From positions 1 through 40,047 of the forward strand of contig NZ_JPYA01000200.1 of NCBI RefSeq assembly GCF_000750005.1: a DNA stretch of 40,047 nt, given 5' to 3'. Positions 11,477-31,081 of the stretch are shown piece by piece. Each line of letters starts with the position of its first letter. Position 1 is the stretch's first letter. Below the pieces are notes generated by a model. The model saw only the letters and a program-made list of their open reading frames with translations. It searched no databases and was not told the origin of the DNA. This DNA is from Geobacillus icigianus. Lineage in GTDB: Bacteria > Bacillota > Bacilli > Bacillales > Anoxybacillaceae. The position numbers and the translations under genes were made by a program.

Positions 11477-11920
11477 TTTATATTTTATGTCTTTTTTTGG
11501 AGGTAGAATTCAGTGCCTTCCATGGAAGTCAGGCCACCATTGAAAAACAGTTTATCTTCAATCAAGAAAACTAGCTATAGAGGTGGTCGAAACTCGAAAG
11601 GAGAGGGGAAAAGAACCAACATGCTTGCAGCATACTTTAGATCTGCCTTCATTGTTTTGCCTAAGAACTGAAAGTATGGCGCAACCATAATCCGAACCTG
11701 GCCAAGCTCGCCGAATTGTGTGGCAACGGTTAGCAGGATGAATGATGTGAGGGATATTTCATATGTGCAGCAACATCGATTTTTCGCTTCTGGAGAGAGG
11801 GGGGCGGTGGCTATCCCGGTATCTTGGCTGGTTTGTTTCCCCCTCAAAATTCGGAATGGTGCATCGTTTTGTTTTGACTTATGGTGGAAGGGGAGAAAGG
11901 TATGGAAGGAGGGAATGAAC
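11477..11920. other. Spacer without a convincing gene
   Basis: This stretch separates the minus-strand exporter from the first SCP2-like gene. A 90-codon minus-strand open frame (11575-11847) has no recognisable domain and no good ribosome site, and may be a decayed gene end. Base composition is lower in GC than in the following cluster. No clear promoter for the downstream gene was found. Confidence 0.4.
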
Positions 11921-12433
11921 GTGCCTATTTTTCGTGATGATGTCCATTTTTATCGGGTTATCGGCGAATTCATGAATATTGCGACTCGTGAACGAACATG
12001 GGAAGAGCTGCGCGCATGGTGGGGCCATCATCCCGCCTATTATGAACAAGGGAACGAATTGGAGCAAATCAACCGCATCGGCGAGCAAATCCGCCGTTCC
12101 CGCGCCGCGTTCGTCTTTTACTTGACCGATCCGGAAGCGGTCATCAGCATCGATGCGAGGCGGCCAACGCCCGGCGAACATTACGAAGTGCTGTTCGGAC
12201 GGGGGCTCGATCAGCCTGACGTCGCCATTGTAACAACCGGGGACGTCGCCCATCAATTTTGGGGTGGCAATATTAGCGTCCCGTTAGCCCTCATAACGGG
12301 AAAAATGAGAGTCAAAGGGTCGAAAGCGAAGGCGCTCCAGCTGCTGCCGCGCATCGTGCCGGCGTTTCCGCTTTACCGGCGCTACTTGGAGCTCATCGAT
12401 GAGCCAGCGCTTCTGCGGGCGCTGCAGACGTAA
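11921..12433 (+). CDS. SCP2-like sterol-carrier-type protein
   Basis: A soluble protein of about 170 residues whose C-terminal two thirds resemble the SCP2 lipid-carrier fold. Visible elements are AFVFYLTDPEAVISID (about residues 62-77), the ligand-tunnel strand region HYEVLFGRGLDQPDVAIV, and the late TGKMRVKGSKAKALQLLPRI stretch, which matches the GKLKIKGN-type turn of SCP2 domains. AAGGAGG (11906-11912) lies only 2 bases before an ATG at 11915 but 8 bases before the GTG at 11921, so the GTG is the likely start. It is the first of three SCP2-like genes in the cluster and resembles the one at 24063. A lipid-binding role is inferred from fold resemblance. Confidence 0.7.
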   Translation: MPIFRDDVHFYRVIGEFMNIATRERTWEELRAWWGHHPAYYEQGNELEQINRIGEQIRRSRAAFVFYLTDPEAVISIDARRPTPGEHYEVLFGRGLDQPDVAIVTTGDVAHQFWGGNISVPLALITGKMRVKGSKAKALQLLPRIVPAFPLYRRYLELIDEPALLRALQT

Positions 12434-12568
12434 AAACATCGGGAAACGCCAAGGGCGAGAAGGGAAAGTCCCGACAAAGTTCGGGATAGGACGGCGGTGG
12501 GAAAGGCGATATAGTAAAAGTGCGGAAATAAATTTCAGATAGTTCAAAATTTTAGGGAGGATATGAAG

Positions 12569-12913
12569 ATGATAGCCGTAAAAGACATTTTTCAGCTGAT
12601 CGACTCGCAGTTGAAGGAAGACCCGTCCCGCGCTGATGGGATTGTCGCCGTGTACCAATTCAATTTGAGCGGAGCTGATGCGGGGGTGTATCAAGTCGTC
12701 CTGCGCCCGGATGCCGGATTTGTCGTTGAAGGAGAACAGGAGACGCCCGATTGCACGCTCAGCATGGACAGCGACGATTTCAAAAAAATGGTCGACGGCG
12801 AGCTCAACGGAACGGAAGCGTTCATGAGCGGGCGGCTTCTCATCGATGGGGATATGGGGTTGGCGCTGCGGCTGCAGGAAGTGTTGGCTGCCTACAACAG
12901 CGCCAACCAATGA
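12569..12913 (+). CDS. SCP2 sterol-binding domain protein
   Basis: A 114-residue stand-alone SCP2 domain. The pattern is canonical: GIVAVYQFNLSGADAGVYQVVL (about residues 26-47), then PDCTLSMDSDDFKKMVDGEL (about 69-88), then EAFMSGRLLIDGDMGLALRL near the end. SCP2 domains bind long-chain acyl-CoA, fatty acids or sterols and often accompany thiolases or acyl-CoA enzymes. The ATG at 12569 is 8 bases after AGGGAGG; the ATG at 12563 is too close. The acyl-CoA synthetase gene begins about 110 bases downstream in the same direction, consistent with a lipid-shuttling role in that pathway. Confidence 0.9.
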   Translation: MIAVKDIFQLIDSQLKEDPSRADGIVAVYQFNLSGADAGVYQVVLRPDAGFVVEGEQETPDCTLSMDSDDFKKMVDGELNGTEAFMSGRLLIDGDMGLALRLQEVLAAYNSANQ

Positions 12914-13025
12914 GCAAAGCGGGATGTTCCAAGAGCGGTGACAGCATAGAGCAACAGGCAAACAAAGACGGCGGGCTTGCCCTTTTCCATCAGCCCGCCC
13001 ATTTTGGCTAAAAGGAGACGAGGGC

Positions 13026-14570
13026 ATGGATTTGCGCACGATTTGGACAAAAAACATCGAGCAGTTCGGTCCTTACGCGGCGTTGATATTTGAAGGAAAA
13101 GAGTACACGAACGTCGAGTGCGACGCCCGTTCGTCCCAATTGGCTCACACGTTGATCGAGCTAGGGGTCAGGCCGGGCGACCGCGTTGTCGTGACGATGC
13201 CGAACAGCCCGGAAGTCGTGATCGCCTTCAGCGGTGTCGTGAAGGCCGGTGCAGTCGTTGTGCCGGTGTTGCCGCTATTGCAGGCGCAGGAACTCCATTA
13301 CATTTTTCAAGATTGCGAACCGAAAGTCGTGCTGACAGCGGAAATGTTGCTCGGGAAAGTGAGAGAAGCGGCGCGCGATTTGCTGCGCTCACCGTCCGTG
13401 TTGACGCTCGAGCCTTCTAACTCGCCTCACTCGCTGTGGGAGAGGATCAAGCAGGCCCTGGCCACTCTGCCGGAGGTGGAAATCACGGACAACGACGCGG
13501 CCGCCTTGCTTTATACATCAGGAACAACCGGCCAGCCGAAGGGGGTCGTGCTGACGCACCGCAACTTGTACGCCAATGCCGAAGCGGCGGCCGAAATGGC
13601 CAAGCTGCTGCAAATGAAGAGCGATCGTGTCGGCCTCGGGGTGTTGCCGATTTCTCATGCGTTCGGTTTTACGATGATGAATGTGGCGCTGCTGCTTGGT
13701 GAACGTGTCGTTCTTCTGCCGTATTTCGAGCCGAAAAAAGTGCTTGCAGCCATCGAAATGTACCGGGTCACGCACACCGCGATGGTGCCGGCCATGTTTC
13801 ACGCCTTGTGTCATGTTCCTGAGGCCGATCGGTATGACACCTCCAGCCTAGTGGCCTGCGTGTCCGGCTCCGCCTCGCTGCCGCCGGCGCTTGCCGAACG
13901 GTTTCAGCGCCAGTTTGGCTGCTTGATTTTGGAAGGCTACGGCCTGTCAGAAGCGGCGCCCATCGTTACAGCAACCGATCCGACGAAACCGATCAAGCCC
14001 GGATCGGTCGGGCTGCCGCTGCCGGGGGTGAAGGTCGCCGTTGTCGATGAACAAGGAAATCCTCTGCCGCCCAATGAGGTGGGGGAGCTGATTGTTTCTG
14101 GGCCGAACGTGTTTTGCGGCTACTATGGAAAAGACGAAGAAACGCGTCGAGCGCTGCGCGACGGTTGGCTGTACACCGGGGACATGGCGCGCATCGATGA
14201 AGACGGGTACGTGTTTATCGTCGACCGGAAAAAAGATGTCATCATCCGCGGCGGATTCAACATTTACCCGCGCGATCTTGAAGAGCTGCTCATGTCGCAT
14301 CCTGATGTGCTGGAAGCGGGCGTTGTCGGCGTTCCGTCGCCGAGGATGGGAGAAGAAGTCGCCGCTTACGTCGTCATCCGCCGCGGGGCGAGCGTGACGG
14401 AAGAGGAACTCATTCGCTTTTGCCAAGAGAAAGTGGCGAAATACAAAAGCCCGCGCTTTTTGAAGATCGTCGGTTATTTGCCAAAAAATTTGCTCGGGAA
14501 AACGGACAAGAAAACGTTGCGCGAGTGGGCGAACGAGTTCGTTCCCGCCGCTGTGGACGGGAATGAATAA
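13026..14570 (+). CDS. Long/medium-chain acyl-CoA synthetase (FadD-like)
   Basis: A 514-residue AMP-forming ligase that activates a fatty or related carboxylic acid to its acyl-CoA thioester. The P-loop is YTSGTTGQPKGV (about residues 162-173), followed by GYGLSEAAPIV (about 303-313), YTGDMARIDEDGYVFIVDRK with the DRKKDVIIRGGFNIYP hinge, and the catalytic lysine in the LLGKTDKKTL C terminus. The start follows AAAAGGAGACGAGGG. It precedes the acyl-CoA dehydrogenase pair by 45 bases and very probably supplies their substrate. The exact acid is not predictable; the RGGFNIYP hinge fits FadD-type fatty acid ligases more than acetyl-CoA synthetase. Confidence 0.92.
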   Translation: MDLRTIWTKNIEQFGPYAALIFEGKEYTNVECDARSSQLAHTLIELGVRPGDRVVVTMPNSPEVVIAFSGVVKAGAVVVPVLPLLQAQELHYIFQDCEPKVVLTAEMLLGKVREAARDLLRSPSVLTLEPSNSPHSLWERIKQALATLPEVEITDNDAAALLYTSGTTGQPKGVVLTHRNLYANAEAAAEMAKLLQMKSDRVGLGVLPISHAFGFTMMNVALLLGERVVLLPYFEPKKVLAAIEMYRVTHTAMVPAMFHALCHVPEADRYDTSSLVACVSGSASLPPALAERFQRQFGCLILEGYGLSEAAPIVTATDPTKPIKPGSVGLPLPGVKVAVVDEQGNPLPPNEVGELIVSGPNVFCGYYGKDEETRRALRDGWLYTGDMARIDEDGYVFIVDRKKDVIIRGGFNIYPRDLEELLMSHPDVLEAGVVGVPSPRMGEEVAAYVVIRRGASVTEEELIRFCQEKVAKYKSPRFLKIVGYLPKNLLGKTDKKTLREWANEFVPAAVDGNE

Positions 14571-14615
14571 GCGGAACGCGCCCCGTTGTGATTGGCATAA
14601 AAGGAGGGAGAAACG

Positions 14616-15740
14616 ATGATCTCATTTCGGCCGACCGAAGAGGAGCGGGCGTTTTGCGAAGTGGCGAAAACGATCGCCGTTGAAGAGATGCGGCCGAGCG
14701 CCCGCGACTGTGAACAGCGCCGTTCTGTAAGCGCATCCATCGCCAAACGCCTTCACGAGTTGGGATTTTTAGGGCTTGAACTTCCCGAAAGCTGGGGTGG
14801 GCTGGAACTTCCGCTCATATCCCAAGCGCAAATTTGGCAAGTGCTCAGCTATGGGGATTTAGGGATTGTTCAAGGGCTTCCCGGACCCGGGGAAGCTGCC
14901 TCGCTCATGCGTCAGGCGCCTGAGCATCCCGTTTGGCGACCGTATCGGGACGCGGGGCAAACGGGAATATGGCCGACGGTGGCCTTCATCGACGGTGAAG
15001 AAACGATCGAGGTCCGCCGCAGCCGCGACGGTTATCGGCTCAACGGGACATCCGCGCCAGTCCGGCGCGCCGCTTTTGCCGATTGGGTGGTTGCAGCCGG
15101 CAAGGATAACGAGGGGGAACCGGTCATTGTCGTTTTCGATGAGCGCACATGGGAGACAATCGAAGGCGATTTCCGCCTCGGGCTGCTGGCCGCGGGGCTT
15201 GGGCGCATTCGCTTTTCCGATGTGTTCGCGGGCAACGACCGCGTGCTTGCCCGCGGAGAGGAGGCGTCGGCCTTGCTTGGGCACGCCCGCGCCCGCCAGT
15301 GCGTGCTTGAAGCGGCGAAGGAAGTCGGGTTGATGGAAGCGGCGCTCGATTACACTATCGAATACACGGCTGGCCGCAAGGCGTTCGGACAGGAAATCGC
15401 CAAATTCCAAGGTGTATCGTTTACGGTTGCGGAAATGGCGTTTGAATGCCGCGGGGCCCGGAACATCGCTTGGGCCGCCGCTTGCCGCGTTGACGAGCAA
15501 GGAAGGGCGGCGGAAGGCTTCGCTTGGCGGGCGCTCGCCCGCGCCCATCGGTCGGTGCGCTACGTCACCGATCAAGCCGTGCAAATGCTGGGCGGGCATG
15601 GCTATGTGCAAGAATATCCGGCCGAAAAATGGATGCGCGACGCCCAAGCGCAAGTGCTGCTGTATGCCCGGGAAACGGACTGGTTCATCCGCCGCGGCGA
15701 ACAGCTGCTGGACGAACGGAAAGAGAGGGTTGCACCGTGA
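14616..15740 (+). CDS. Acyl-CoA dehydrogenase subunit lacking the usual catalytic glutamate
   Basis: A 374-residue acyl-CoA dehydrogenase fold protein. It keeps the C-terminal FAD-contact motifs GRKAFGQEIAKFQG (253-266) and MLGGHGYVQEYPAEKWMRD (324-342), but the segment aligned with IYEGT, which carries the catalytic base in most family members, reads VLLYARE (about 347-353) without the glutamate. The mid-domain TEPxxGSD/ITNG motifs are also missing. The start follows AAAGGAGGGAG. It overlaps the next gene by 4 bases; that gene has the missing motifs and lacks the ones kept here. The pair therefore probably forms a heteromeric enzyme with one active site per pair, as in mycobacterial FadE partners. 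Confidence 0.88.
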   Translation: MISFRPTEEERAFCEVAKTIAVEEMRPSARDCEQRRSVSASIAKRLHELGFLGLELPESWGGLELPLISQAQIWQVLSYGDLGIVQGLPGPGEAASLMRQAPEHPVWRPYRDAGQTGIWPTVAFIDGEETIEVRRSRDGYRLNGTSAPVRRAAFADWVVAAGKDNEGEPVIVVFDERTWETIEGDFRLGLLAAGLGRIRFSDVFAGNDRVLARGEEASALLGHARARQCVLEAAKEVGLMEAALDYTIEYTAGRKAFGQEIAKFQGVSFTVAEMAFECRGARNIAWAAACRVDEQGRAAEGFAWRALARAHRSVRYVTDQAVQMLGGHGYVQEYPAEKWMRDAQAQVLLYARETDWFIRRGEQLLDERKERVAP

Positions 15741-16951
15741 TTTCATTTGCGTTGTCACCGCAGCAAAAACAAATCAAAGAGCTCGTTCATTGGTTCGCCC
15801 AACACGAAGTGCGCCCGCTTGCCCTCGAGGCCGACCGGCTCGGACGGGTCCCGGAGGAGTGGCTGCAAAAAGTGAACAAAATGGGCATCCAGCTGAACAC
15901 ATCGTCATTCGGCGGCGGGCGGTCGGCGCCAGCGGCGGGGCAGAAACCGGACAAAAAAGAACGCGAAGGCAACCGCGTGGCGGTGATTGCCGCCGAGGAG
16001 CTCGCGTGGGGCTGCCCGGCCATTGCCTTATCCCTTCCCGGTCCCGGCCTTGGCGGGCCGCCGATCCAGTCAAGCGGCACTCCGGAACAGAAGCAGCGCT
16101 TTTTATCGATATTTACGAAAGACGAACCGCGCTGGGGGGCGTACGCGCTGACCGAACCGGAGGCCGGTTCGGATGCGTCCGGCATTCGGACGACAGCGAG
16201 AAAAGTTGACGGCGGCTATGTGTTGAACGGGCAAAAAATTTTCATTACCAACGGTGCTCGCGCTTCATGGGTCGTCGTGTTCGCCACGGTCGATCCGAAG
16301 CTCGGCCGCGCCGGACACCGGGCGTTTGTCGTCGAAAAAGGGACGCCGGGCTTTTTGGCAACGCGCACCGTCCATAAAATGGGGCTGCGCGCCAACGAGA
16401 CAGCGGAGCTCGTGTTTGAAGACTGCTTCGTCCCGGCGGAAAACTTGCTCGGTGGAGAGGAGTTGTACAGCGCCGCGGCCCATCAACCATCCGGATTTCA
16501 AGTGGCGATGAAAACGTTCGATAGCACGAGGCCGATCGTTGCCGCCATGGCGGTCGGCATCGCCCGCGCGGCTTACGAATATACGCTCGAGATCGTTCGC
16601 CGCGATTATCCGAAGCAAGGGCGGCTGTACTATGAAGCGGCTGAGCTGCTCGCCGAGGCGGAACAAGAGATCGATGCGGCGCGGCTGCTCACGTGGGAAG
16701 CGGCGTGGAAAGCGGACATCGGCGAAGCGAACGCGATGGAAGCGGCGATTTGCAAAGCGGTGGCTGGCAAAATGGCGCTGCGCGTATGCGCGATGTGCCT
16801 TGAGCTGCTCGGCCCGGTCGGTCTTGATGGGCATTTGGTGGAGAAACTGTATCGCGACGTGAAAGTGTTTGATATTTTTGAAGGCACACAGCAAATTCAG
16901 CGCCTTGTCACCGCCCGACGGTTGTATGCGCCATACGGCGTCCATGTATAA
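15737..16951 (+). CDS. Acyl-CoA dehydrogenase, catalytic subunit of a pair
   Basis: A 404-residue acyl-CoA dehydrogenase. The mid-domain motifs are intact: YALTEPEAGSD (136-146) and FITNGA (169-174), and the catalytic glutamate is present as E382 in FDIFEGTQQIQRL. The arginine/FG motif that normally contacts FAD of the neighbour subunit is replaced by YPKQGRLYYEAAEL, and the GGxGY loop is LGPVGLDGH. The GTG start at 15737 overlaps the stop of the upstream gene (GTGA) and follows GAGAGGG, so translation is coupled. Residues 56-80 carry a Gly/Lys-rich stretch (GGGRSAPAAGQKPDKK) that interrupts the usual N-terminal helices. Desaturation of an acyl-CoA is the expected reaction. Confidence 0.9.
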   Translation: MISFALSPQQKQIKELVHWFAQHEVRPLALEADRLGRVPEEWLQKVNKMGIQLNTSSFGGGRSAPAAGQKPDKKEREGNRVAVIAAEELAWGCPAIALSLPGPGLGGPPIQSSGTPEQKQRFLSIFTKDEPRWGAYALTEPEAGSDASGIRTTARKVDGGYVLNGQKIFITNGARASWVVVFATVDPKLGRAGHRAFVVEKGTPGFLATRTVHKMGLRANETAELVFEDCFVPAENLLGGEELYSAAAHQPSGFQVAMKTFDSTRPIVAAMAVGIARAAYEYTLEIVRRDYPKQGRLYYEAAELLAEAEQEIDAARLLTWEAAWKADIGEANAMEAAICKAVAGKMALRVCAMCLELLGPVGLDGHLVEKLYRDVKVFDIFEGTQQIQRLVTARRLYAPYGVHV

Positions 16952-16961
16952 CGTCTCCTAT

Positions 16962-16994
16962 GCCCAACTCGTTTCGGGCGGAACGAGCTTGGGC
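16962..16994. other. Hairpin in the spacer before enoyl-CoA hydratase
   Basis: GCCCAACTCGTT and AACGAGCTTGGGC can pair with one bulged base around an 8-base loop. There is no T-run, so it may attenuate or protect the operon message rather than end it. Confidence 0.45.
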
Positions 16995-17122
16995 GCTCTG
17001 ACTCGCAGTCGCCAAGGATATCCCCGCCCGATCGGCATCGGTTCCCGGTCGATTCGGTCGTCATCGGAGCGGCCAGCGCCGTTGGCGGGGGCATCGCAGC
17101 GAACGAAAGGAGAGAGTGTGAC

Positions 17123-17914
17123 TTGCCTTACGAAACGATTCGCATCGAACGGCGGGACAAAGGAGTCGCTTGGCTGATCATCGACCATCCGCCGGCCAAC
17201 GCCATTAGTGAAACGTTGATGAACGAATTGGAACAAGCGGCCGATGAGCTGGAAGCCGACAGCAAGGTGCGCGTGATCGTCATTGCGTCGGCCCATCCGA
17301 AAACGTTTCTCGCCGGCGCCGACTTAAAGGACATGATTCGGCGGGGAAGCCAGTTGGCCGGCAATAAGGCCGGCATCGTCGAACAGAGCGCCCGCATGCA
17401 GCGCTGCTTCGACCGCTTCGCCAAAATGCCGAAACCGGTGATCGCGGCCATCAACGGCTATGCGCTCGGCGGTGGCTGCGAATTGGCGCTCGCTTGCGAC
17501 TTCCGCATCATGGGCGGAGGCAAAATCGGCTTAACGGAAGTTTCCCTCGGCTTGATTCCAGGAGCAGGCGGGACGCAGCGGCTGACGCGCCTTGTCGGAC
17601 GGGCGAAAGCGACGGAGCTTATTTTTCTCGCCCGCCGGCTCGATCCGCAAGAAGCGCTCGCGCTCGGCCTCGTTCACCGCGTGACCGCTCCGGAACGGCT
17701 GAACGAAGACGTAGCATCGTTTGCCGAACAGTTGTCCGAAGGCGCGGTGCGGGCGATGGGGCTGGCCAAGCGGGCGATCGATGCCGCCGAGGAGTGCGCT
17801 GAGGATGGGTTCGCTGTTGAAGCGGCATCCTTTGCGGCCACGTTTCAAACAGGGGAGCCGGCCATCGGGCTAGCGGCGTTTTTCCAAAAGAAACAACCGC
17901 AATTTTTACGATAA
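17123..17914 (+). CDS. Enoyl-CoA hydratase (crotonase family)
   Basis: A 263-residue crotonase that hydrates trans-2-enoyl-CoA to 3-hydroxyacyl-CoA. Both catalytic glutamates are present, E120 in GGGCELALACD and E139 in GLTEVSLGLIPGAGGTQR, and the oxyanion-hole backbone positions lie in LAGADLK (63-69) and YALGGGCE. The TTG start at 17123 follows AAAGGAGAGA by about 8 bases and gives MPYETIRIERR. It follows the dehydrogenase pair by 171 bases and is followed by an SDR after 15 bases, the expected order of beta-oxidation steps. Confidence 0.93.
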   Translation: MPYETIRIERRDKGVAWLIIDHPPANAISETLMNELEQAADELEADSKVRVIVIASAHPKTFLAGADLKDMIRRGSQLAGNKAGIVEQSARMQRCFDRFAKMPKPVIAAINGYALGGGCELALACDFRIMGGGKIGLTEVSLGLIPGAGGTQRLTRLVGRAKATELIFLARRLDPQEALALGLVHRVTAPERLNEDVASFAEQLSEGAVRAMGLAKRAIDAAEECAEDGFAVEAASFAATFQTGEPAIGLAAFFQKKQPQFLR

Positions 17915-17929
17915 ACGGAGGGATCAGCG

Positions 17930-18772
17930 ATGTCATCGTGGGCGGAATTGTTGAAAGGAAAGGTGGCGGTCGTCACCGGTGCTTCGCGCGGCCTCGGGCG
18001 TGCGGACGCGCTCGCGCTGGCGGAAGCGGGGGCTGATGTCGTCATCACCGATATTTTGCTCGAATCGGATGAGGAAAGCAGGCAAACAGCGCAAAAATAC
18101 GGACCGCTCTCCCAAGTGATGCAAAGCACGAACGTCGTGTACGCGGAAAAAACAGCGGAAGAAATTCGCGCCATGGGGCGGCGGGCAATGGCGATCAAAA
18201 TGGACGTCACCGACCGCGAGCAAGTGAAGGACGTGTTCGCCCGCGTCAAAGAGGAGTTCGGATCGATCGACATTTTGGTCAATAACGCCGGCACGCTTGA
18301 CCACGTTTCACAAATCGAAAAGCAAAACGATGCGTTGTGGGAGCGCGATTTGCGGGTGAATTTGACCGGCACGTACAACTGCACGAAAGCCGTGTGGCCG
18401 TACATGAAAGAGCAAGGATGGGGGCGGATCATCAACATGTCGTCCGTCGCCGGCACGCTCGGCGGCTTCGGGCAGGCGAGCTACTCGGCGACGAAAGGAG
18501 CGGTGTTGAGCTTTACGAAAAGCATGGCGCTGGAAGGAGCGCGCTACGGCATTACGGTGAACGCCATCGTGCCGGGCATTATCAATACGGAAGCGTTCCG
18601 CATGGGCAACCCGAAAATGAACGAACGGATGATCCAGCGCACGGCGTTCCGCCGCCCGGGTGAGCCCGAAGACGTCGCCAACGCCATCGTCTTTCTTTGC
18701 TCCGATAAGGCGAAATATATTACCGGCATTGGGTTGAACGTATCGGGAGGCATAGAACTGTTTACGTTTTGA
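17930..18772 (+). CDS. SDR-family NAD(P)-dependent dehydrogenase with an N-terminal insert
   Basis: A 280-residue short-chain dehydrogenase. The nucleotide motif is TGASRGLG (16-23), followed by NNAG (118-121), the active-site serine in MSSVAG (170-175), Y185 and K189 in YSATK, and VPG after it. A likely role is oxidation of the 3-hydroxyacyl-CoA produced by the upstream hydratase. Between the second beta strand (VVITDI) and AEEIRAMG there are about 35 residues where ordinary FabG-like SDRs have about ten; the extra part includes SDEESRQTAQKYGPLSQVM. An insert at this place is known from mycofactocin-coupled SDRs, but no mycofactocin genes are in the window. Start follows ACGGAGGGA. Confidence 0.9.
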   Translation: MSSWAELLKGKVAVVTGASRGLGRADALALAEAGADVVITDILLESDEESRQTAQKYGPLSQVMQSTNVVYAEKTAEEIRAMGRRAMAIKMDVTDREQVKDVFARVKEEFGSIDILVNNAGTLDHVSQIEKQNDALWERDLRVNLTGTYNCTKAVWPYMKEQGWGRIINMSSVAGTLGGFGQASYSATKGAVLSFTKSMALEGARYGITVNAIVPGIINTEAFRMGNPKMNERMIQRTAFRRPGEPEDVANAIVFLCSDKAKYITGIGLNVSGGIELFTF

Positions 18773-19092
18773 GCCAAAAGCGCGGTGGTGGCCGAGCGCC
18801 AGCTGACCTTTGGGCTGTGGCGCAGCCTCGCGTTCTCACCGCGTCAGAAACGTTTGGCCAACCGGCTATCGGACTGTGAGCCTACACCCGAAGCGGGCAC
18901 CGCGGGGGAAATGTTGTTGGCTAAGGCCAGCAAGTGAAGGTGGGCTCGGATCGGAAGCGGCGCGGCTTCGGCGGCCCGCAGCAGCTCGCTAAGGGGAGAG
19001 CGGATCGATGATGATCCGAGCGTGAGAGGCACTCGCCAAATCGCTCAACGATTTCGAGCAGACCGATTTTCAGACAGAACAGGAGGAGCGGC
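18773..19092. other. Spacer between SDR and thiolase genes
   Basis: About 320 bases without a credible gene. A small hairpin (CGGATC and GATCCG, 19001-19018) is visible and the composition is GC-rich like the flanking genes. No promoter or terminator stands out; the thiolase ribosome site AGGAGGAG lies at its end. Confidence 0.5.
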
Positions 19093-20235: not shown

Positions 20236-20256
20236 AGCGGAGAGGAGGGGAGCGGT

Positions 20257-22002
20257 TTGCACGCATCGATCGAAACAGCCAAACCGAAACAAAAGCGCGA
20301 TTTTACGGCGGTCAGCGCCGCCATTGAAGCCGAGCTGGCCGCCATCACGGCGGGAAGGCGACGGCGAAAAATCATGACAACGTTTGTCAAAAACGGACTT
20401 GGCGTAGTGTTTAGCGACATCATCGCCCATAAACTGCGAGGAAAAGAAGGAGATAGTACTTCGTTGCGCCAAATCGGCCGCCGGCTCCGCCTAGCGTTTG
20501 AGGAGCTCGGCCCAACGTTCATCAAGCTTGGGCAGGTGCTCGTCACCAGGCAAGATTTGCTGCCGGAGCCGATCACGCTCGAGCTCGAACGGTTGCTTGA
20601 CCGAGTGCCGCCGATCGAGTTTGCGAAAATCGAGTACATTCTCGAACGTGAGCTTCCGGACGGTCTTGAGACGTTTGAATGGATCGAAGAAACGCCGCTC
20701 GGTTCGGCGTCGCTTGCCCAAGTATACAAAGCCAAGCTGAAAGACGGGCCGGTCGTCGCGGTCAAAGTCGTGCGCCCGACGGTCGAAAAGCTGTTTCAAA
20801 CCGACATCGCTGTTATCAAAAAAATGGCCGCCCGTCTGCAGAAGCGGCTGCCCCCTGAACTGCAGGCCGCCCTCGATCTTGGGGGGCTCGTGCAAGATTA
20901 CTACAGCAGCGCCATGGATGAGCTGGATATGACGGAAGAAGCGCGAAAAATGCAAGAGATGAAGCAAAAATACGAAAGGAGGGCCGAACATGTCACGGTT
21001 CCGCACGTGTACGAAGCGACGAAAAGCGTCTTAATCATGGAATACATCGACGGCTGGCTCATAAAAGATTTCCCCGTTGATTTTCTCACCTTTGAAGAGC
21101 GGGTCAACATTATGATCGACCTCGTTCACCATTATGTGCAGATGATGCTCGATGGCCATTATCATGCCGACGCCCACGGTTCCAACATCATGATCGACAA
21201 GCGGACGAAAAAAGCGGTCATCATCGACTGGGGAATGACCGGGCGGATGGACAGCGTGATGGCGCAAATTTTGATGCGCGTCATTTTGCACATCCAGCTC
21301 AACCAAGCAGAAGACGCCGTCGAAGTGTTTATGGAGCTCATGTCGCCGACCATCTACACCGATGTCGTCAAATTGAAAGATGAACTGCGGACGCTGACGT
21401 TAAACTATGTGTCCGCCCACCAGGGAAGCAGCCGCTACAATTACGGCCGCCTCGTCCTTGAAGCGACGGCGATCGGGCTTCGCAATTATTGCAAAGTTCC
21501 AAACGGCTTGGCGCTTTGGGCGAAAGGGTTTTCCGCGACCGAAGGGACGGCGCGCTGGATTTGTCCGGAAATCTCGTACGGCGAAGTCATCGAGGCGTAT
21601 GAAATCCCGATTTTAAAAAGCATTCTCGGAAAGCGTTTTAATTTCCGCGCCAACGCCAGCCTCGTCGCTGAAACGGCCGAATTGGTCGCCACCTTGCCGC
21701 GCCGGTTCAACAAAGTGCTCGAGACGGTGGCGGAAAACAAATGGCGCCTGACCGTGCAGCTGCAAACCGACCCGGTGACGCGCAATACGCTCAACCAAAT
21801 TGCCAACCGGCTGGTGCTTTCCCTCCTCGCGTTTGCCATTATCGTCGCCACCGGATTGATTGTCGCCAGCATCCCGGGCGGAACGTTTTGGGGGATGGAC
21901 AAAACGACGATCGCCAACATCGGATTGGCTGTTTCGTTCCTCTTGGTGGTGTTTCTTGGTTGGCGGCTGTTCCGCACGCGCAAGCAACGGCCGCGGTTTT
22001 AA
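20257..22002 (+). CDS. UbiB/ABC1-family atypical kinase with C-terminal membrane segments
   Basis: A 581-residue protein of the UbiB (ABC1/ADCK) kinase-like family. Hallmarks are KLGQ (90-93), the alanine-containing nucleotide loop GSASLAQVY (149-157), K170 in VAVKVV, the ExD at 222-224, H303/D305/N310 in HADAHGSN and DWG (324-326) in place of DFG. Two hydrophobic segments near residues 512-535 and 548-568, with a basic C-terminal tail, anchor it in the membrane. Family members support quinone and other lipid metabolism; the target here is unknown. The TTG start follows GAGGAGGGG by 6 bases. Its place inside a beta-oxidation cluster, 21 bases after the thiolase, is informative. Confidence 0.9.
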   Translation: MHASIETAKPKQKRDFTAVSAAIEAELAAITAGRRRRKIMTTFVKNGLGVVFSDIIAHKLRGKEGDSTSLRQIGRRLRLAFEELGPTFIKLGQVLVTRQDLLPEPITLELERLLDRVPPIEFAKIEYILERELPDGLETFEWIEETPLGSASLAQVYKAKLKDGPVVAVKVVRPTVEKLFQTDIAVIKKMAARLQKRLPPELQAALDLGGLVQDYYSSAMDELDMTEEARKMQEMKQKYERRAEHVTVPHVYEATKSVLIMEYIDGWLIKDFPVDFLTFEERVNIMIDLVHHYVQMMLDGHYHADAHGSNIMIDKRTKKAVIIDWGMTGRMDSVMAQILMRVILHIQLNQAEDAVEVFMELMSPTIYTDVVKLKDELRTLTLNYVSAHQGSSRYNYGRLVLEATAIGLRNYCKVPNGLALWAKGFSATEGTARWICPEISYGEVIEAYEIPILKSILGKRFNFRANASLVAETAELVATLPRRFNKVLETVAENKWRLTVQLQTDPVTRNTLNQIANRLVLSLLAFAIIVATGLIVASIPGGTFWGMDKTTIANIGLAVSFLLVVFLGWRLFRTRKQRPRF

Positions 22003-22070
22003 CCTAGCTTGTTGAAAAAATCGGCATCAGGCGGTCGGCGCGGTTCTGGAAGGGAAAGCTTCCGCTACGG

Positions 22071-22173
22071 CAATCGAATCGATCCGCGATGAAGAGTGCT
22101 AGCCATGTTCGCTGGATAGGAACGCCATCCGATAATGGCCGCGATCGGATCGATCCGCAACGAAGAGTGCTGG
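22071..22173 (+). repeat. Pair of ~32-bp direct repeats
   Basis: Copies at 22071-22102 and 22142-22173 share ATCGATCCGC and GAAGAGTGCT with few differences, 71 bases apart start to start. They lie in the spacer after the UbiB gene. A small hairpin (GCACGA/TCGTGC, about 22181-22197) follows. Function unknown. Confidence 0.7.
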
Positions 22174-22223
22174 TCCCGGGCACGAGCGCATCGTGCCACA
22201 TTGTCGCTAAAGGAGGGAACGAT

Positions 22224-22556
22224 GTGCGCGACGAGCATGAGGAATGGACGATGTCCCAGCGTATCGAAGCGTTTTACCGCCAAAGTGGCGGACCGGGAAG
22301 CCCGGTAATTCGGCGCCTGTTGGAGAGGCATTTGCTGTATGGAAAAGACCATGGCATCCCCGGAAAACGGGAAGAATTCGCGGACGCGTTTCGCGAAGTG
22401 TTTTTGCATGACCATTCCACCCGCTCGCTCGTTCTTGGCCTGTTCAAGCTAAAAACCGCCTTGCAAGAGGAATGGAACACCTACTTGGAGGCGCTGCGAG
22501 GTCAAGGCGGCGCCCGTGAAGCAAACGCGGATTTCGCTGACAGGCGGGAGCGATAA
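22224..22556 (+). CDS. Small protein of unknown function
   Basis: A 110-residue, charged, mostly helical protein that I do not recognise. It has no signal peptide, membrane segment, cysteine motif or obvious cofactor site. The GTG at 22224 lies 7 bases after AAAGGAGGG, which makes it the likely start; an ATG at 22222 is in another frame and gives only a very short peptide. An internal ATG at 22251 is a weaker alternative. It is in the same orientation as its neighbours, 23 bases before the alcohol dehydrogenase, so it is probably translated from the same message. Confidence 0.65.
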   Translation: MRDEHEEWTMSQRIEAFYRQSGGPGSPVIRRLLERHLLYGKDHGIPGKREEFADAFREVFLHDHSTRSLVLGLFKLKTALQEEWNTYLEALRGQGGAREANADFADRRER

Positions 22557-22579
22557 GGCGGTGAAAGGGGAGAACAACG

Positions 22580-23686
22580 ATGGTGAAAGCGGCGGTGTTG
22601 CACCATTACGGGGAGCCGCTGGCGATCGAGGAGCTGGATTTAGCTGCCCCCCGGTTTGGGGAAGTAAAAGTGAAAATGAAAGCGGCCGGCCTCTGCCATA
22701 GCGATTGGCATGTCGTGCAAGGCCAGCTGCCGCTTCCTTTGCCGCTGGTGCTCGGCCATGAAGGGGCAGGCATCGTTGAGGAGGTGGGCGAGGGAGTGAC
22801 GAGCGTTCAAGCCGGCGACCACGTTGTGCTCAATTGGGTGCCGTCGTGCGGCCGCTGTCCTTATTGCCGCCTTGGCCGGCCCGACTTATGCGAAGCGGCG
22901 GCCCGGCTGACGGCGACCGGCACGCTGCCGGACGGGACGACGCGTTTTTCCCTTGGTGGAAAGCCAGTCTATCAATTTCTCACCGCCGGGGCGTTCAGCG
23001 AGCGCACGATCGTGCCGGAACAGGCAGCGATTCCGATTCGCCGCGATGTGCCGTTTGAATTGGCGGCCTTGATCAGCTGCAGCGTCATGACCGGGGTGGG
23101 GGCGGTCATCCATGCCGCGCGGGTGCGCCCCGGCAGCACGGTGGCCGTCATCGGCGCCGGTGGCGTCGGCTTCAACATCATCCAAGGAGCGGCGCTCGCC
23201 GGGGCCAAACAAATTATCGCCATCGACATTGTCGAGGAAAAATTGACGATGACGAAAACGTTCGGGGCGACGCATACGGTCAACGCCGGCGACGAAGATG
23301 CCGTCAGCGCGGTTCTCGACTTGACGGACGGCCTCGGCGTCGACTACGCGTTTGAAGCGATCGGCCGCCCGGAAACGATGGCGGACGCGTACAACATGAC
23401 GAGAAAGGCGGGGATGACGGTCATCGTCGGCATCGCCGCTCCGCATGAAACGGTGGAAATCAACGCCTTCTCCTTGCCGTCGCAGGCAAAGACGTTGACA
23501 GGGGTGTGGCTCGGCCAAGGCAATCCCCCGGTCGACTATCCGAAGCTGCTCGACTTGTACGCGGCGGGCAAGTTGAAGCTGGAACCGCTCATCAGCGCCG
23601 TCTATGCGCTCGAACAAATCAACGACGGCTTCGCCGCCTTAAAGAGCGGACAAAACATCCGCGGCCTGATCCGCTTTGAGGAATAA
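22580..23686 (+). CDS. Zinc-dependent alcohol dehydrogenase (MDR superfamily)
   Basis: A 368-residue medium-chain dehydrogenase. Catalytic zinc ligands are C39 (LCHSD), H60/E61 (GHEGAG) and C167 (ISCSVMTG). The structural zinc loop has C90, C93, C96 and C104 (CGRCPYCRLGRPDLC). The Rossmann motif is GAGGVG (192-197), and an acidic residue ends the second strand (IIAIDI), so NAD is the likely cofactor. It resembles class III/aryl- or long-chain-alcohol dehydrogenases. With the aldehyde dehydrogenase at 24549 it could carry an alcohol to a carboxylic acid for the cluster's CoA ligase. The start follows AAAGGGGAG. Confidence 0.93.
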   Translation: MVKAAVLHHYGEPLAIEELDLAAPRFGEVKVKMKAAGLCHSDWHVVQGQLPLPLPLVLGHEGAGIVEEVGEGVTSVQAGDHVVLNWVPSCGRCPYCRLGRPDLCEAAARLTATGTLPDGTTRFSLGGKPVYQFLTAGAFSERTIVPEQAAIPIRRDVPFELAALISCSVMTGVGAVIHAARVRPGSTVAVIGAGGVGFNIIQGAALAGAKQIIAIDIVEEKLTMTKTFGATHTVNAGDEDAVSAVLDLTDGLGVDYAFEAIGRPETMADAYNMTRKAGMTVIVGIAAPHETVEINAFSLPSQAKTLTGVWLGQGNPPVDYPKLLDLYAAGKLKLEPLISAVYALEQINDGFAALKSGQNIRGLIRFEE

Positions 23687-23820
23687 ACACGCACCAACAA
23701 GGAGGCGATGCCTCTCACGGCGAGCTTGGACCGCTGAGCTTGGGAATGCGGCCGGAAGCCGGATTTCGGAAGGCGGCCGCTCATTCGGCGCCATCACCGA
23801 TGTGCAAGGTATAGGGAGAA

Positions 23821-24056
23821 CGTCTTGAGGCGATATCGCCGACTTAGAAAGAACAAAGAGATCGTCTTGGCGATCACCGCCAACTTAGGAGGAACAGGAG
23901 AGGATCTTGCCGGTGACCGCAGCTTAGAAGGAACAAGGCAATCGTCTTGCTGGTGACCGTGGCTTAGAAAGAGCAAGGGCTCGTCTTGGCGGTCATCGCG
24001 ATTTAGAAGGAACAAGGCGATCGTCTTGACGATCATCACCGACTGGGAAAGGGGAA
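23821..24056 (+). repeat. 40-bp tandem repeat array, about 5.8 copies
   Basis: Units begin at 23821, 23863, 23903, 23943, 23982 and 24022, with lengths 42, 40, 40, 39, 40 and a partial. Each begins near CGTCTTG, has a dyad such as GGCGATCACCGCC, then a conserved ACTTAGAAGGAACAAGG-like part. The whole unit is conserved, with no unique spacers, so it is not a CRISPR array. It lies between the alcohol dehydrogenase and SCP2-like genes and ends just before the latter's ribosome site. Confidence 0.85.
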
Positions 24057-24062
24057 AACGAG

Positions 24063-24491
24063 ATGCCGGTGTTTCAAAGTGAGCAGGAGCTGTATGACGT
24101 TCTCGGCCGCTTTTTTGAAAAAGTGGCCGAGACGGACGAGTCGAAGGAATTGATCGCCTCGACAGAGTTAACCCCCGGCTATGACGCGTATGTCCAATAT
24201 ATTTTTCATAAGCCGGAAGCGAAAATTACGTGGACGCATGAAAACGGGAGACTGAAAATCGTCTGCGGCGAGACGGACTTGCGGCCGGAGCTCATCTTTG
24301 AACAGAGCGCCGATGTCGGACATAAATTTTGGCTCGGGCGGCTCGATTTGCAGCAGGCGCTTGCCCGCCAACAAATCAAAGTGCAAGGACCGCTCGTGAA
24401 CGCATTGAAAGTGCTGCCGCAACTTGACGCCATCTATCCGGCGTACCGCGACTATTTGCAAGAAATCGGCCGCAGCGATTTATTGCGATAG
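24063..24491 (+). CDS. SCP2-like sterol-carrier-type protein
   Basis: A 142-residue soluble protein that resembles the SCP2-like protein at 11921 more than the canonical domain at 12569. Shared elements are a HxxFWLGRLDLQQALARQQIKVQG-type segment near residues 80-105, in the position of the GKLKIKG turn, and a C-terminal YPAYRDYLQEIG helix comparable to PLYRRYLELID in the first protein. The start follows AAAGGGGAAAACG. It sits between alcohol and aldehyde dehydrogenases, directly after the tandem array. A role in binding hydrophobic substrates or acyl-CoA is inferred, not shown. Confidence 0.75.
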   Translation: MPVFQSEQELYDVLGRFFEKVAETDESKELIASTELTPGYDAYVQYIFHKPEAKITWTHENGRLKIVCGETDLRPELIFEQSADVGHKFWLGRLDLQQALARQQIKVQGPLVNALKVLPQLDAIYPAYRDYLQEIGRSDLLR

Positions 24492-24548
24492 CTTGGTTCA
24501 AAATCCGATCAATCGAGAACATGGAGCGATGGAAAGGAGGAGACGGCA

Positions 24549-26036
24549 ATGATTTCGATGCAAACGACGGAAGCCGATTTATGGATTGATGGAGAATGGC
24601 GGCCGGCCGCCAGCGGCAAACGGTTTGACGTCATCGACCCGGCGACGGGCGAAGTGACGGCCCGCGTCGCCGACGCTGGCGAGGACGATATCGACGCGGC
24701 GGTCACCGTCGCCGAAGAGGCGTTTTCGGATCGGCGCTGGCTGGCCATTTCCCCGCTTGAGCGCGGACGCATCTTGCGCCGCATCGCTGAACTGATCCGC
24801 CAGCATCACGATGAACTGGCCCGGCTGATGACAAGGGAAAACGGCATGCCGATCAACATGGCGCGGTTTATCGAAATTCCGCTCGCCGCCGACTGTTTCG
24901 ACTTTTTCGCCTCGCTTGTCGTCAAGCCGCAAGGAGAGGTGCTACCGTTTTCCGTCGCCGGCACCGCCCCTGACTATATGGCGTGGACGGTCAAGGAGCC
25001 GATCGGGGTGGCGGGACTGATTACGCCATGGAACTTCCCGCTTTTGATGCCGACATGGAAAATCGCTCCGGCGCTGGCGGCGGGCTGTACGATGGTGGTA
25101 AAACCGGCCCCGGAGACGCCGCTGACGGCGCTTAAACTCGCCGAACTTTGCCAAGAAGCCGGCGTGCCGGACGGCGTTGTCAACGTCCTGCCGGGGCGGG
25201 ATGAAGCGGGCAAAGCGCTCGTCCGCCATCCGCGCGTGCCGAAAATCGCGTTTACTGGCGAGACGGCAACGGGGCGCCACATCTTGCAGGCGGCCGCTCC
25301 CCACATTAAGCGGGTGACGCTTGAGCTCGGCGGCAAGTCGCCGAACATCATCTTTGCTGATGCGGATCTCGAACAGGCGGCCAAAAGCGCGCTGTTTGGC
25401 GTGTTCTACAACTCCGGGCAAGTATGCCAAGCGGGAAGCCGCATTTTAGTCGAACGGTCGGTGTATGAAACGTTCGTTCAGCTGTTGGCCGACCGGGCCA
25501 ACACATTGCGAATGGGCCCCGGGATGAGCGCCCGCACCGACATTGGCCCGGTCGTCAGCCGCGAGCAGTACGACAAAGTGCTGCGCTACATTGACATCGG
25601 CCGGCAGGAGGGAGCGAAACTGGTCGCTGGAGGAAACGCGCGGCCGGAGCTCGGCGGCTACTTTATCGAGCCGACGATTTTTGCCGATGTCAAGCCGTCG
25701 ATGCGCATCGCCCGTGAAGAAATTTTCGGTCCGGTGGCGGCCGTGATTCCGTTCGCCGATGAGGAAGAAGCGGTTCGCCTTGCCAACGATACGATCTACG
25801 GACTCGCTGCCGCTGTTTGGACGAACGATATCAAGCGGGCGCTCCGCTTGGCGCGCCGGGTGAAAAGCGGAACGGTATGGATCAACACGTATCAAGTGCT
25901 GTCGCCGACCGCCCCGTTTGGCGGCTATAAGCAGAGCGGCCTCGGCCGCGAGCTCGGGATGCAGGCGCTTGAACCGTATTTGGAGACGAAAACCGTCATT
26001 TGCGACGTAAACGACCGGCCGCTGACGTTGTTTTAA
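24549..26036 (+). CDS. NAD(P)-dependent aldehyde dehydrogenase
   Basis: A 495-residue aldehyde dehydrogenase that oxidises an aldehyde to a carboxylic acid. The catalytic cysteine is C293 in NSGQVCQAGSR, the general base is E259 in LELGGKSPN, N162 lies in TPWNFPL, and the cofactor loop is FTGETATGR. The late motif EEIFGPV and the C-terminal PFGGYKQSGLGRE are complete. The start has AAAGGAGGAG upstream. It is related to the betaine/phenylacetaldehyde-type group, but the natural aldehyde is not predictable. In context it would follow the alcohol dehydrogenase, with the acid then taken by the acyl-CoA synthetase. Confidence 0.95.
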   Translation: MISMQTTEADLWIDGEWRPAASGKRFDVIDPATGEVTARVADAGEDDIDAAVTVAEEAFSDRRWLAISPLERGRILRRIAELIRQHHDELARLMTRENGMPINMARFIEIPLAADCFDFFASLVVKPQGEVLPFSVAGTAPDYMAWTVKEPIGVAGLITPWNFPLLMPTWKIAPALAAGCTMVVKPAPETPLTALKLAELCQEAGVPDGVVNVLPGRDEAGKALVRHPRVPKIAFTGETATGRHILQAAAPHIKRVTLELGGKSPNIIFADADLEQAAKSALFGVFYNSGQVCQAGSRILVERSVYETFVQLLADRANTLRMGPGMSARTDIGPVVSREQYDKVLRYIDIGRQEGAKLVAGGNARPELGGYFIEPTIFADVKPSMRIAREEIFGPVAAVIPFADEEEAVRLANDTIYGLAAAVWTNDIKRALRLARRVKSGTVWINTYQVLSPTAPFGGYKQSGLGRELGMQALEPYLETKTVICDVNDRPLTLF

Positions 26037-26309
26037 GAGAGGGAAAAGGCTGGCGAAAAACAGCCGTTTCCCTTCCATGGATGGGGAAACGCGTGTAAAT
26101 GTGACAAAGCGTTTCGATGGGAAAACCAAGGCCGGAAAACGGGAGGTGCGATGCCATCACCAGCGTAGGAAAAGACCGGTGACAACCGGTCGGTTTGTGA
26201 GAAGCTGAAAAGAACGCGTGATGGTGCCGCGACATGTTTTCGCTTGAACAGCGCGGTTGGGAGCGCCTTGTTTCCTTACATTAACAACCTTAAAAGGAGG
26301 AGAAACGCG
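26037..26309. other. Spacer with degenerate repeat fragment before R2lox
   Basis: This 270-base spacer holds a dyad GACCGG/CCGGTC near 26174-26191 and a segment (about 26172-26205) that resembles the start of the interspersed repeat (GACTGGTGAAAACCGGTTG in the copy near 28470). An outer imperfect pair (ATCACCAGCGT with ACGCGTGATG) could enclose it. No gene was found; the R2lox ribosome site AAAAGGAGGAG lies at its end. Confidence 0.5.
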
Positions 26310-27218
26310 ATGACTCGCCACGATGGGTTTCAAACGGTGAAAGGCACGATCGATTGGGAGCATCCGATGTACAAATTGTATGAAAAAGCGAAGCGCAACG
26401 GGAAATGGAATCCGGCCGACATCGATTTCAGCCAAGACCAAACCGATTTTGCCAGCTTGACGAGCGAAGAAAAAATATCGGCTTTGCCGCTTGTCGCCGG
26501 GTTTTCCGCCGGCGAAGAGGCGGTGACGCTCGACATCTTGCCGATGACAAACGCCCTCGCGCGCCAAGGGCGGCTCGAGGACGTCCTGTTTTTGACGACG
26601 TTTATGCACGACGAAGCGAAGCATGTCGAGATGTTTTCCCGCTGGCAGCAAGCCGTCGGCATCGGGCAGATGGACTTGTCCGTCTTTCATAACGACCATT
26701 ACAAACGCATCTTTTACGAAGCGCTGCCGGAAGCGATGGACCGCCTGTATAGCGACGACTCGCCGGAAGCGATCATCCGCGCCGCCACGGTGTACAACAT
26801 GATTGTCGAAGGAACACTGGCCGAATCGGGATATTACACGTTCCGGCAAATTTACAAAAAAGCCGGGCTGTTCCCAGGGCTGCTCCAAGGCATCGATTAT
26901 TTGAACATGGACGAAGGCCGGCACATTCAGTTCGGCATTTATACGATCCAGCGGCTTGTCAATGAAAACGAACGATATTATGAGTTGTTCATCCGCTATA
27001 TGGACGAATTATGGCCGCACGTCTCCGGATATGTCGCCTATTTGACCGAGCTTGGCAAACGCCAGCAGCACCTCGCCCGCGCACGGAGTCTGGAAATTGA
27101 CTATGACATGCTAACCAACTATGTGGTCAAACAGTTTCACATCCGCAAAAAACAAATCAGCCGCACGAAGCGGTATGACAGCGTCGAGGAGCTAGAAAAA
27201 ACAGCGGCCGAATTTTAA
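26310..27218 (+). CDS. R2-like ligand-binding oxidase (R2lox), Mn/Fe protein
   Basis: A 302-residue ferritin-like protein related to the ribonucleotide reductase R2 subunit but belonging to R2lox, which holds a mixed Mn/Fe centre and a bound fatty-acid-like ligand. All six metal ligands are at the positions I recall for the G. kaustophilus protein: E69, E102, H105, E167, E202 and H205. V72 and Y162, which form the unusual valine-tyrosine ether link there, are also present. R2lox oxidises by oxygen activation; its physiological substrate is unknown. The ATG at 26310 follows AAAAGGAGGAG. Its place after aldehyde and alcohol dehydrogenases and a beta-oxidation set suggests a hydrophobic aliphatic substrate. 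Confidence 0.97.
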   Translation: MTRHDGFQTVKGTIDWEHPMYKLYEKAKRNGKWNPADIDFSQDQTDFASLTSEEKISALPLVAGFSAGEEAVTLDILPMTNALARQGRLEDVLFLTTFMHDEAKHVEMFSRWQQAVGIGQMDLSVFHNDHYKRIFYEALPEAMDRLYSDDSPEAIIRAATVYNMIVEGTLAESGYYTFRQIYKKAGLFPGLLQGIDYLNMDEGRHIQFGIYTIQRLVNENERYYELFIRYMDELWPHVSGYVAYLTELGKRQQHLARARSLEIDYDMLTNYVVKQFHIRKKQISRTKRYDSVEELEKTAAEF

Positions 27219-27230
27219 AAGGCTCGTGGA

Positions 27231-27266
27231 AAAGAGCGGTTTCTCTTTATCAGAAGCGCTTTTTTC
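27231..27266 (+). terminator. Probable terminator after R2lox
   Basis: AAAGAGCGGTTTCT and AGAAGCGCTTTTTT form an imperfect stem ending in a T-run, 13 bases after the R2lox stop. Confidence 0.55.
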
Positions 27267-27304
27267 GATTCGAGATCGAGAGCGAATATGCTTAATTCCG
27301 AGCA

Positions 27305-27331
27305 GACGGGCGGGTTTCGCCCGCCCGCGTC
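27305..27331. terminator. GC-rich hairpin between R2lox and the DUF6230-like gene
   Basis: GGGCGGG (27308-27314) and CCCGCCC (27320-27326) pair across TTTCG, with further GAC/GTC pairing outside. No T-run follows. It may back up the R2lox terminator. Confidence 0.45.
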
Positions 27332-27470
27332 TTGACAGAAGAAAAAAATCGCTTTCGATCGTTTTCTTTTGGAGGAAGCCAGAAAGCAACAAGAGAGCAA
27401 GGAATGGAACGGGCGTGAGAACGTCACATTCAATAATGGGAACCGACAGCAGGGGGAGAGAAAGGCTTTT

Positions 27471-31075: not shown

Positions 31076-31081
31076 AAGAAG

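Follow-up and report, generated by a model that had tools for sequence, protein, structure and literature searches.

What does the R2-like ligand-binding oxidase (R2lox) do that is encoded among lipid-oxidation genes in Geobacillus icigianus? The stretch analysed here (the window) is an entire contig of 40,047 nucleotides, in short 40 kb, from a 3.46-Mb draft genome, whose placement with Geobacillus was taken from protein matches. At 11921-27218, catabolic genes and R2lox all lie on the plus strand. A first-pass annotation, made from the sequence alone, had named SCP2-type carriers, an acyl-coenzyme A (acyl-CoA) ligase, two acyl-CoA dehydrogenases, an enoyl-CoA hydratase, a short-chain dehydrogenase/reductase (SDR), a thiolase, a UbiB-type kinase, an alcohol dehydrogenase (ADH), an aldehyde dehydrogenase (ALDH) and R2lox; all of these are present on that one strand. 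Its view of R2lox as the end of the cluster needs correction, as a P21-like gene (27574-28179) and then DUF6114 and coiled-coil genes come after it, and its statement that R2lox lacks a known physiological substrate has been overtaken by a 2024 paper claiming n-alkanes (PMC10867098). We consider it fairly probable that these genes together break down a hydrophobic chain, with hydroxylation by R2lox as the first step.

In the proposed route, the SCP2-type carriers would hold a hydrophobic chain; this chain is most likely an n-alkane of medium to long length or a comparable lipid. R2lox (26310-27218) would use O2, two electrons and its Mn/Fe site to place a hydroxyl on the chain; the zinc ADH (22580-23686) and then the ALDH (24549-26036) would convert the product into a carboxylic acid, the ligase (13026-14570) would form the CoA thioester, and the acyl-CoA dehydrogenase pair, the hydratase (17123-17914), the SDR (17930-18772) and the thiolase (19093-20235) would run beta-oxidation. 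What we infer here is that R2lox hydroxylates, what donates electrons to it in Geobacillus, which substrate is used and how the steps are ordered. The window has what an alkane-oxidation gene cluster calls for: a candidate oxygenase, ADH and ALDH, ligase and beta-oxidation genes. The long-chain acyl-CoA ligase (NF004837, 496.5 bits, cut-off 476), the thiolase (an acetyl-CoA C-acyltransferase; TIGR01930, 457.6 bits, cut-off 240.55) and the SDR (NF009466, 226.3 bits, cut-off 222) pass their models. Under cut-off are the hydratase (NF004475/NF005802, ~204 bits), the ALDH (TIGR01804, 573.6 bits; 48% to the R2lox-linked Rhodococcus enzyme) and the ADH (TIGR03989, 406.6 bits, cut-off 440), which matches class I ADHs of the PDB at ~290 bits. 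The same order of oxygenase, alcohol and aldehyde dehydrogenases, ligase and beta-oxidation is common to the AlkB, LadA and CYP153 routes; in the window, the oxygenase would be R2lox.

The R2lox protein (302 aa) passes its curated family cut-off (NF006200, 490.7 bits vs 194), and among solved structures it best matches R2lox of G. kaustophilus (4hr0 and others, 625 bits). The most likely start codon is ATG 26310, which AAAGGAGG precedes as a good ribosome-binding site, and not TTG 26244. At residue positions taken from PMC10867098 and from the available part of PMC4118035, the six metal ligands (E69, E102, H105, E167, E202 and H205), the cross-link pair V72 and Y162, and Y175 of the ligand cavity are conserved. 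The physiological role of R2lox was still termed unknown in the available portions of papers from 2014 and 2019. From the tyrosine-valine cross-link chemistry, R2lox might instead be a desaturase or other oxidase acting on a bound fatty acid in a lipid side branch: the desaturase proposal is on record, together with the conserved Tyr175 in the ligand cavity, in the accessible text of PMC4118035, Tyr175 is kept in the window R2lox, and fatty acids co-purify with R2lox (PMC10867098). We regard this as improbable; it leaves unexplained why ADHs recur beside R2lox in separate clades.

Hydroxylation by R2lox as the opening step of the cluster draws support from gene linkage at several depths. Within the genus, genomes have either both R2lox-I and the catabolic genes or neither. 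By NF006200, R2lox-I is present in 11 of the 14 genus genomes and in 13 of the 41 family genomes; in five of these 13, another R2lox passes the cut-off as well. In a DNA search of the genus with window positions 11600-31100 as query, all 11 R2lox-I genomes have, among the matches listed, the genes from the first carrier (carrier A, 11921-12433) to R2lox in the same order, in one of them divided between the ends of two contigs. The three genomes that have no R2lox-I also lack the cluster: two have ackA directly beside moaB, and in the third (G005) short adh, sdr and ech remnants persist between these two genes, so that the cluster was lost there as a block.

The genome-neighbourhood comparison that the annotation had suggested was run across the order, taken as Bacillales from protein names, and in actinobacteria. 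R2lox was found at E 1e-30 or better in 71 of 397 genomes and 26 of 135 genera of the order. The 86 R2lox places include 17 clear R2lox-I, seven in the window's genus and ten outside it, all ten of which were read up to 20 kb each side; 40 of the other 69 were fetched, at least one per genus seen. Outside the neighbourhood counts stand an incomplete R2lox-I gene fetched later (G312), a 3-kb contig with ligase, R2lox and ALDH (L093) and two loci with more distant R2-like proteins (L106 and L119). The actinobacterial loci are the best 80 of 570, a selection biased towards the R2lox of a Rhodococcus plasmid, which headed the query set; full 10-kb flanks are present at 52 of the 80. Twenty 20-kb stretches from 11 genomes of the order served as random control, a control that actinobacteria do not have.

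Taking ADH, ALDH, SCP2, ligase, acyl-CoA dehydrogenase, hydratase and thiolase as marker genes, we found at least one within 10 kb at 10/10 distant R2lox-I loci, 28/31 R2lox-II loci, 6/6 group III loci and 53/80 actinobacterial loci, and in 2/20 random stretches. An ADH lies within 5 kb at 3/10 R2lox-I, 25/31 R2lox-II (iron enzyme), 6/6 group III and 30/80 actinobacterial loci (zinc enzyme), and in 0/20 random stretches; the corresponding figures for ALDH are 3/10, 21/31, 6/6, 11/80 and 1/20. For the ADH at R2lox-II against random, Fisher's test gives p 4e-9 with related loci treated as independent, which they are not; counted by genus, the ADH is near R2lox-II in 12 of 14. Hence R2lox does not stand without such neighbours in most relatives among the loci read.

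The distant R2lox-I loci carry different portions of the window's cluster. Thiolase, SDR, hydratase and acyl-CoA dehydrogenases lie beside R2lox in six of the ten, and the ADH, SCP2, ALDH and UbiB group in three; one of the six (G047) also has the alcohol/aldehyde group, with those dehydrogenase genes 12-15 kb off. The locus in G249 has only weaker relatives of the thiolase (59%), ligase (35%) and SDR, and the eleventh, incomplete R2lox-I gene (G312) is likewise accompanied by relatives of these three. Two genomes have just the alcohol/aldehyde group at R2lox-I; in these, a second R2lox (L099, L101) has relatives of the other half at a distance of 4-10 kb. In the R2lox-II and group III clades, the alcohol step is retained, the aldehyde step in most cases, and beta-oxidation genes are sometimes missing.

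The descent of these ADHs bears most directly on what R2lox makes. In actinobacteria, the zinc ADH match ends 10-98 bases before R2lox in 28 of 30 loci, and the ADH of R2lox-II and group III is of the iron type (PF00465/PF25137), another family than the window's zinc enzyme. Among zinc enzymes of R2lox loci, those of Bacillota (8) and of Actinobacteria (11, the ones caught by the open reading frame (ORF) call, not all 30) each form one group. We also considered one ancestral R2lox-ADH operon for both phyla and discarded it: a joint zinc-enzyme clade was rejected by the approximately unbiased test (p 2.1e-6), in a set that held these 8 and 11 enzymes and 34 of 120 further proteins whose gene context is unknown; one long-branch join is flagged, and four aberrant rows (one mis-clustered ORF, three distant) were removed beforehand. 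The alcohol dehydrogenase step seems, on these sequences, to have joined R2lox at least three times. Since ADHs of separate descent recur beside R2lox, R2lox would be expected to make an alcohol, and this is the strongest argument here for an alcohol product. The route is the best fit, and it gains from the joint presence and absence in the genus, from this pairing and from the redox genes described below; the comparison supports, independently, the hydroxylation predicted for R2lox.

Several observations weigh against the proposed route, and they are given here and in the paragraphs that follow. No marker lies within 10 kb in 27 of the 80 actinobacterial loci (17 with full flanks, the others on shorter stretches), 16 of the 27 being Rhodococcus or Prescottella by titles, nor in three of the 31 R2lox-II loci, and the ALDH is within 5 kb in only 11 of the 80 actinobacterial loci. 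In four genomes of the window's genus (L052, L053, L232 and L233), R2lox-II has an internal deletion with loss of its core; beside the broken gene, the iron ADH matches over its full length in all four, and the ALDH is full-length in three and split between frames in the fourth. Marker-less loci, a broken R2lox-II next to a full-length ADH, and the 273-base gap between ALDH and R2lox in the window would suit an R2lox that is a passenger in ordinary lipid-oxidation operons, with a separate role such as metal or oxygen handling. A passenger would not be expected to pair with ADHs of separate descent, nor to have markers at 10/10 distant R2lox-I loci as against 2/20 random stretches, and we hold this explanation to be unlikely.

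A hydroxylase would moreover need an electron supply. Three of six listed Rhodococcus plasmids were opened, and on all three R2lox is found with a flavin adenine dinucleotide (FAD)-dependent reductase, a ferredoxin and an NDMA-type ADH; on pROB01 and pRB11, ALDH, SCP2, ligase and Mce genes then follow, and on the third, ALDH, SCP2 and ligase lie 8-11 kb further on. Reductase and ferredoxin occur within 5 kb of R2lox in 9 of the 80 actinobacterial loci. The ferredoxin and reductase adjoining R2lox on the Rhodococcus plasmids are probable redox partners for in vitro reconstitution, and the occurrence of such genes next to R2lox in part of its relatives counts in favour of the route. We found no treatment of this arrangement by title or abstract in the open-licence literature. 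A P450 could be the true user of the pair; what we take to be the P450 heme motif was not found in eight of the nine such actinobacterial loci, a weak negative given that the scan also missed annotated P450s in L123. Among the 54 Bacillales loci searched, window included, a Rhodococcus-like ferredoxin/reductase pair was not found in 53, and the sole locus with ferredoxin and reductase (G047) has a P450 (PF00067, 138 bits) between the reductase and R2lox. The electron donor of the window's R2lox would have to be encoded elsewhere; no search was made for that donor.

Soluble di-iron monooxygenases of the methane/alkane type also bear comparison: they have a related metal site in the literature, O2-dependent hydroxylation is likewise proposed for R2lox, and a further shared trait is that some R2lox relatives have ferredoxin and reductase genes alongside. 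They differ in that R2lox is a single R2-like protein, with a Mn/Fe site in the studied homologue (literature), and that no partner subunits or electron-transfer proteins were seen in the window. As dedicated electron-transfer proteins beside the oxygenase were not found there, R2lox may be said to work like a soluble dimetal monooxygenase rather than to be one. The genome also encodes a LadA-like protein on another contig (best PDB match 3b9n, 521 bits) and a fatty-acid-desaturase-family protein, so that R2lox is not the sole candidate for the first step; no P450 was found in this genome. On contig C33 lie two FMN-dependent monooxygenases (L235, L236), of which one is LadA-like and one has more in common with nitrilotriacetate monooxygenase.

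The cluster and the alkane route are already published for a near relative, on thin biochemistry. In Geobacillus kaustophilus HTA426, the cluster GK2769-GK2782 has the gene kinds and the proposed route of the window, an R2lox 89-91% identical to the window's and an adjoining P21 orthologue, which the authors noted (PMC10867098, 2024); thus, the observation and the route in the first-pass annotation are sound, and it is their novelty that falls. GkR2loxI (GK2771) is claimed as an alkane hydroxylase from alkane loss by cells and in crude E. coli lysates with R2lox, and activity of an E202A/H205A mutant was "slightly but apparently decreased", the remaining alkane differing by 11-21% (PMC10867098). 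Of these data, two aspects belong with the points against the route: only alkane loss was measured, with no hydroxylated product reported in the text, and the authors themselves grade the activity loss of the double ligand mutant as slight. HTA426 is said to be without LadA (PMC10867098), whereas the window's genome has a LadA-like gene. The three SCP2-type carriers of the window and its acyl-CoA dehydrogenase without the usual glutamate are not discussed in the text of that paper.

The P21-like gene that adjoins R2lox (27574-28179, plus strand; DUF6230, PF19741, 40.7 bits) brings evidence of both kinds. Its product matches the three P21 peptides in the available part of the published account, one identically and two with one residue different. 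In Geobacillus thermoleovorans B23, long-chain alkanes, but not palmitic acid, are reported to induce P21, and the P21 mRNA is ~700 bases (PMC2676291). For the gene beside R2lox, alkane induction and a separate transcript are thus on record in a relative; induction is published for P21 of this relative only, and its own short mRNA counts against the proposed route. The P21 block is variable among cluster-bearing genomes of the genus, and consensus scans for co-transcription of the cluster gave nothing usable.

As the true substrate of R2lox, n-alkanes are plausible. Alternatively, R2lox could hydroxylate a natural substrate other than an n-alkane, namely a branched, cyclic or isoprenoid lipid; the SCP2-type carriers, the putative two-subunit acyl-CoA dehydrogenase and Mce-type importers in relatives hint at this. 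Of the three SCP2-type carriers in the cluster, the clearest is a sterol-transfer-family protein of 116 aa (12563-12913; PF02036, 80.7 bits, cut-off 21.3); an antisense ORF over it was taken as spurious. Other R2lox-I loci repeatedly carry a family of matching size and position (cluster c21), and we infer from these two traits that the 116-aa protein is a member. Carrier A has no Pfam match and is tied to SCP2 by kinship only, being 30% identical (E 2e-14) to the SCP2 that accompanies R2lox on Rhodococcus pROB01; its ORF opens at 11720, with GTG 11921 the likely start and ATG 11915 possible. It aligns with carrier B (24063-24491), for which Pfam gives no SCP2 match and which is assigned by fold only: its AlphaFold model (mean predicted local distance difference test score, pLDDT, 88.3) has its best Foldseek matches to alkylsulfatases and SCP2 proteins, at E ~1e-5. 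Carrier B is also 35% identical to an annotated Rhodococcus SCP2.

In acad1 (14616-15740), which belongs to the acyl-CoA dehydrogenase family, Tyr replaces the usual catalytic Glu in 9/9 aligned copies, window included. In acad2 (15737-16951), Glu is kept in 10/10 aligned copies, window included, and its probable GTG start, read from the translation, overlaps the acad1 stop. As these three traits fit together, acad1 and acad2 may form one two-subunit enzyme, with one subunit catalytic and the other apparently not. Some acyl-CoA dehydrogenase families carry the Glu at another position, and the acyl-CoA dehydrogenases of actinobacterial sterol breakdown are two-subunit enzymes with a similar pattern of Glu-less and Glu-keeping subunits. 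This likeness, together with Mce/YrbE genes within 10 kb in 18 of the 80 actinobacterial loci and near R2lox on two Rhodococcus plasmids, would favour a branched, cyclic or isoprenoid substrate; on the other side stand the lack of any special likeness of acad1 to sterol enzymes of the PDB among the best 60 of 79 matches, the induction of P21 by n-alkanes in the available text of PMC2676291, and the n-alkane loss reported from lysate work (PMC10867098). We therefore leave such a lipid as a possible but somewhat doubtful natural substrate.

Steroid catabolism as the leading interpretation, prompted by the thiolase, the SCP2 carriers and the acyl-CoA dehydrogenase pair, was considered and set aside, acad1 having no special likeness to sterol enzymes among those best 60 of 79 PDB matches; no ring-cleavage enzyme was present among the window proteins scanned. 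A mycofactocin pathway was likewise dismissed: the SDR, the ADH and a TetR gene at 9189-9797 (minus strand) match mycofactocin-linked models, all under cut-off, and the maturase model MftC reached at best 120.8 vs 265 bits across the window's own genome. With the TIGR03989 score of the ADH at 406.6 vs 440 bits and no MftC passing, the ADH does not qualify as mycofactocin-dependent. The second PDB match of the SDR is a (3R)-hydroxyacyl-CoA dehydrogenase (2et6), and the SDR could serve as the 3-hydroxyacyl-CoA dehydrogenase of the cluster.

Returning to R2lox hydroxylation, the loci of other clades suggest how far it might extend. The GkR2loxII locus on plasmid pHTA426, of group III, resembles the window in having R2lox near alcohol and aldehyde dehydrogenases and a ligase; it differs in its UbiD decarboxylase and iron ADH and in an R2lox only 30% identical (PMC10867098), and it looks like a pathway for ring compounds, judging by its genes. 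A UbiD-type decarboxylase, an iron ADH and an ALDH lie within 5 kb of group III R2lox (GkR2loxII type) in 6/6 fetched loci of the order (L100, L102 and L115-L118), and L127 (pHTA426) shows the same gene kinds. We would tentatively advance, at somewhat less than even confidence, a broader view: R2lox proteins would form a widespread family of Mn/Fe hydroxylases that consist of a single component and receive electrons from ferredoxin and ferredoxin reductase. Each clade would have its own hydrophobic substrate (alkanes in Geobacillus, lipids imported by Mce systems in actinobacteria, ring compounds in group III with its UbiD link), and unrelated ADHs would have been recruited repeatedly as the first downstream step. 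If R2lox does hydroxylate, a Mn/Fe enzyme family would join the short list of biological C-H hydroxylases. An R2lox relative was also seen in a haloarchaeon (L129, Halostagnicola larsenii plasmid), among ligase, acyl-CoA dehydrogenase, hydratase, hydroxyacyl-CoA dehydrogenase and thiolase genes.

The remaining genes of the region accompany the cluster. An ABC1/UbiB-type atypical kinase (20257-22002; PF03109, 170.9 bits; TIGR01982, 254.5 bits, under cut-off) is followed by a small conserved protein without a family match (22089-22556), which stands beside UbiB in R2lox-I loci and has relatives 49-73% identical in other such loci. Beyond the P21-like gene, also on the plus strand, lie a DUF6114 protein (28767-29912; PF19609, 55.5 bits) and a coiled-coil-like protein (29327-31075) with a weak SMC-like match, whose real start is probably later than the ORF start and whose relatives occur near R2lox-I in other genomes. 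A LuxR-type regulator on the minus strand (31229-32608; PF00196, 62.8 bits) is a candidate regulator of the cluster; relatives of it (35-48%) are present in nine of the ten distant R2lox-I stretches, in eight of the ten within 10 kb.

A LuxR-type protein of 223-233 aa stands divergently beside R2lox-II in 17 loci (L088, L089, L092, L094-L097, L099, L101, L103-L105, L109-L111, L121 and L122), and comparison at five loci shows 25-32% likeness between its region and the C-terminal half of the 459-aa LuxR protein in the window. LuxR-type regulators thus accompany two R2lox clades. Further along the window, at 33909-37580, an MFS (major facilitator superfamily) transporter, an ATP-grasp protein and an ArsR-type regulator follow in succession as a small separate group.

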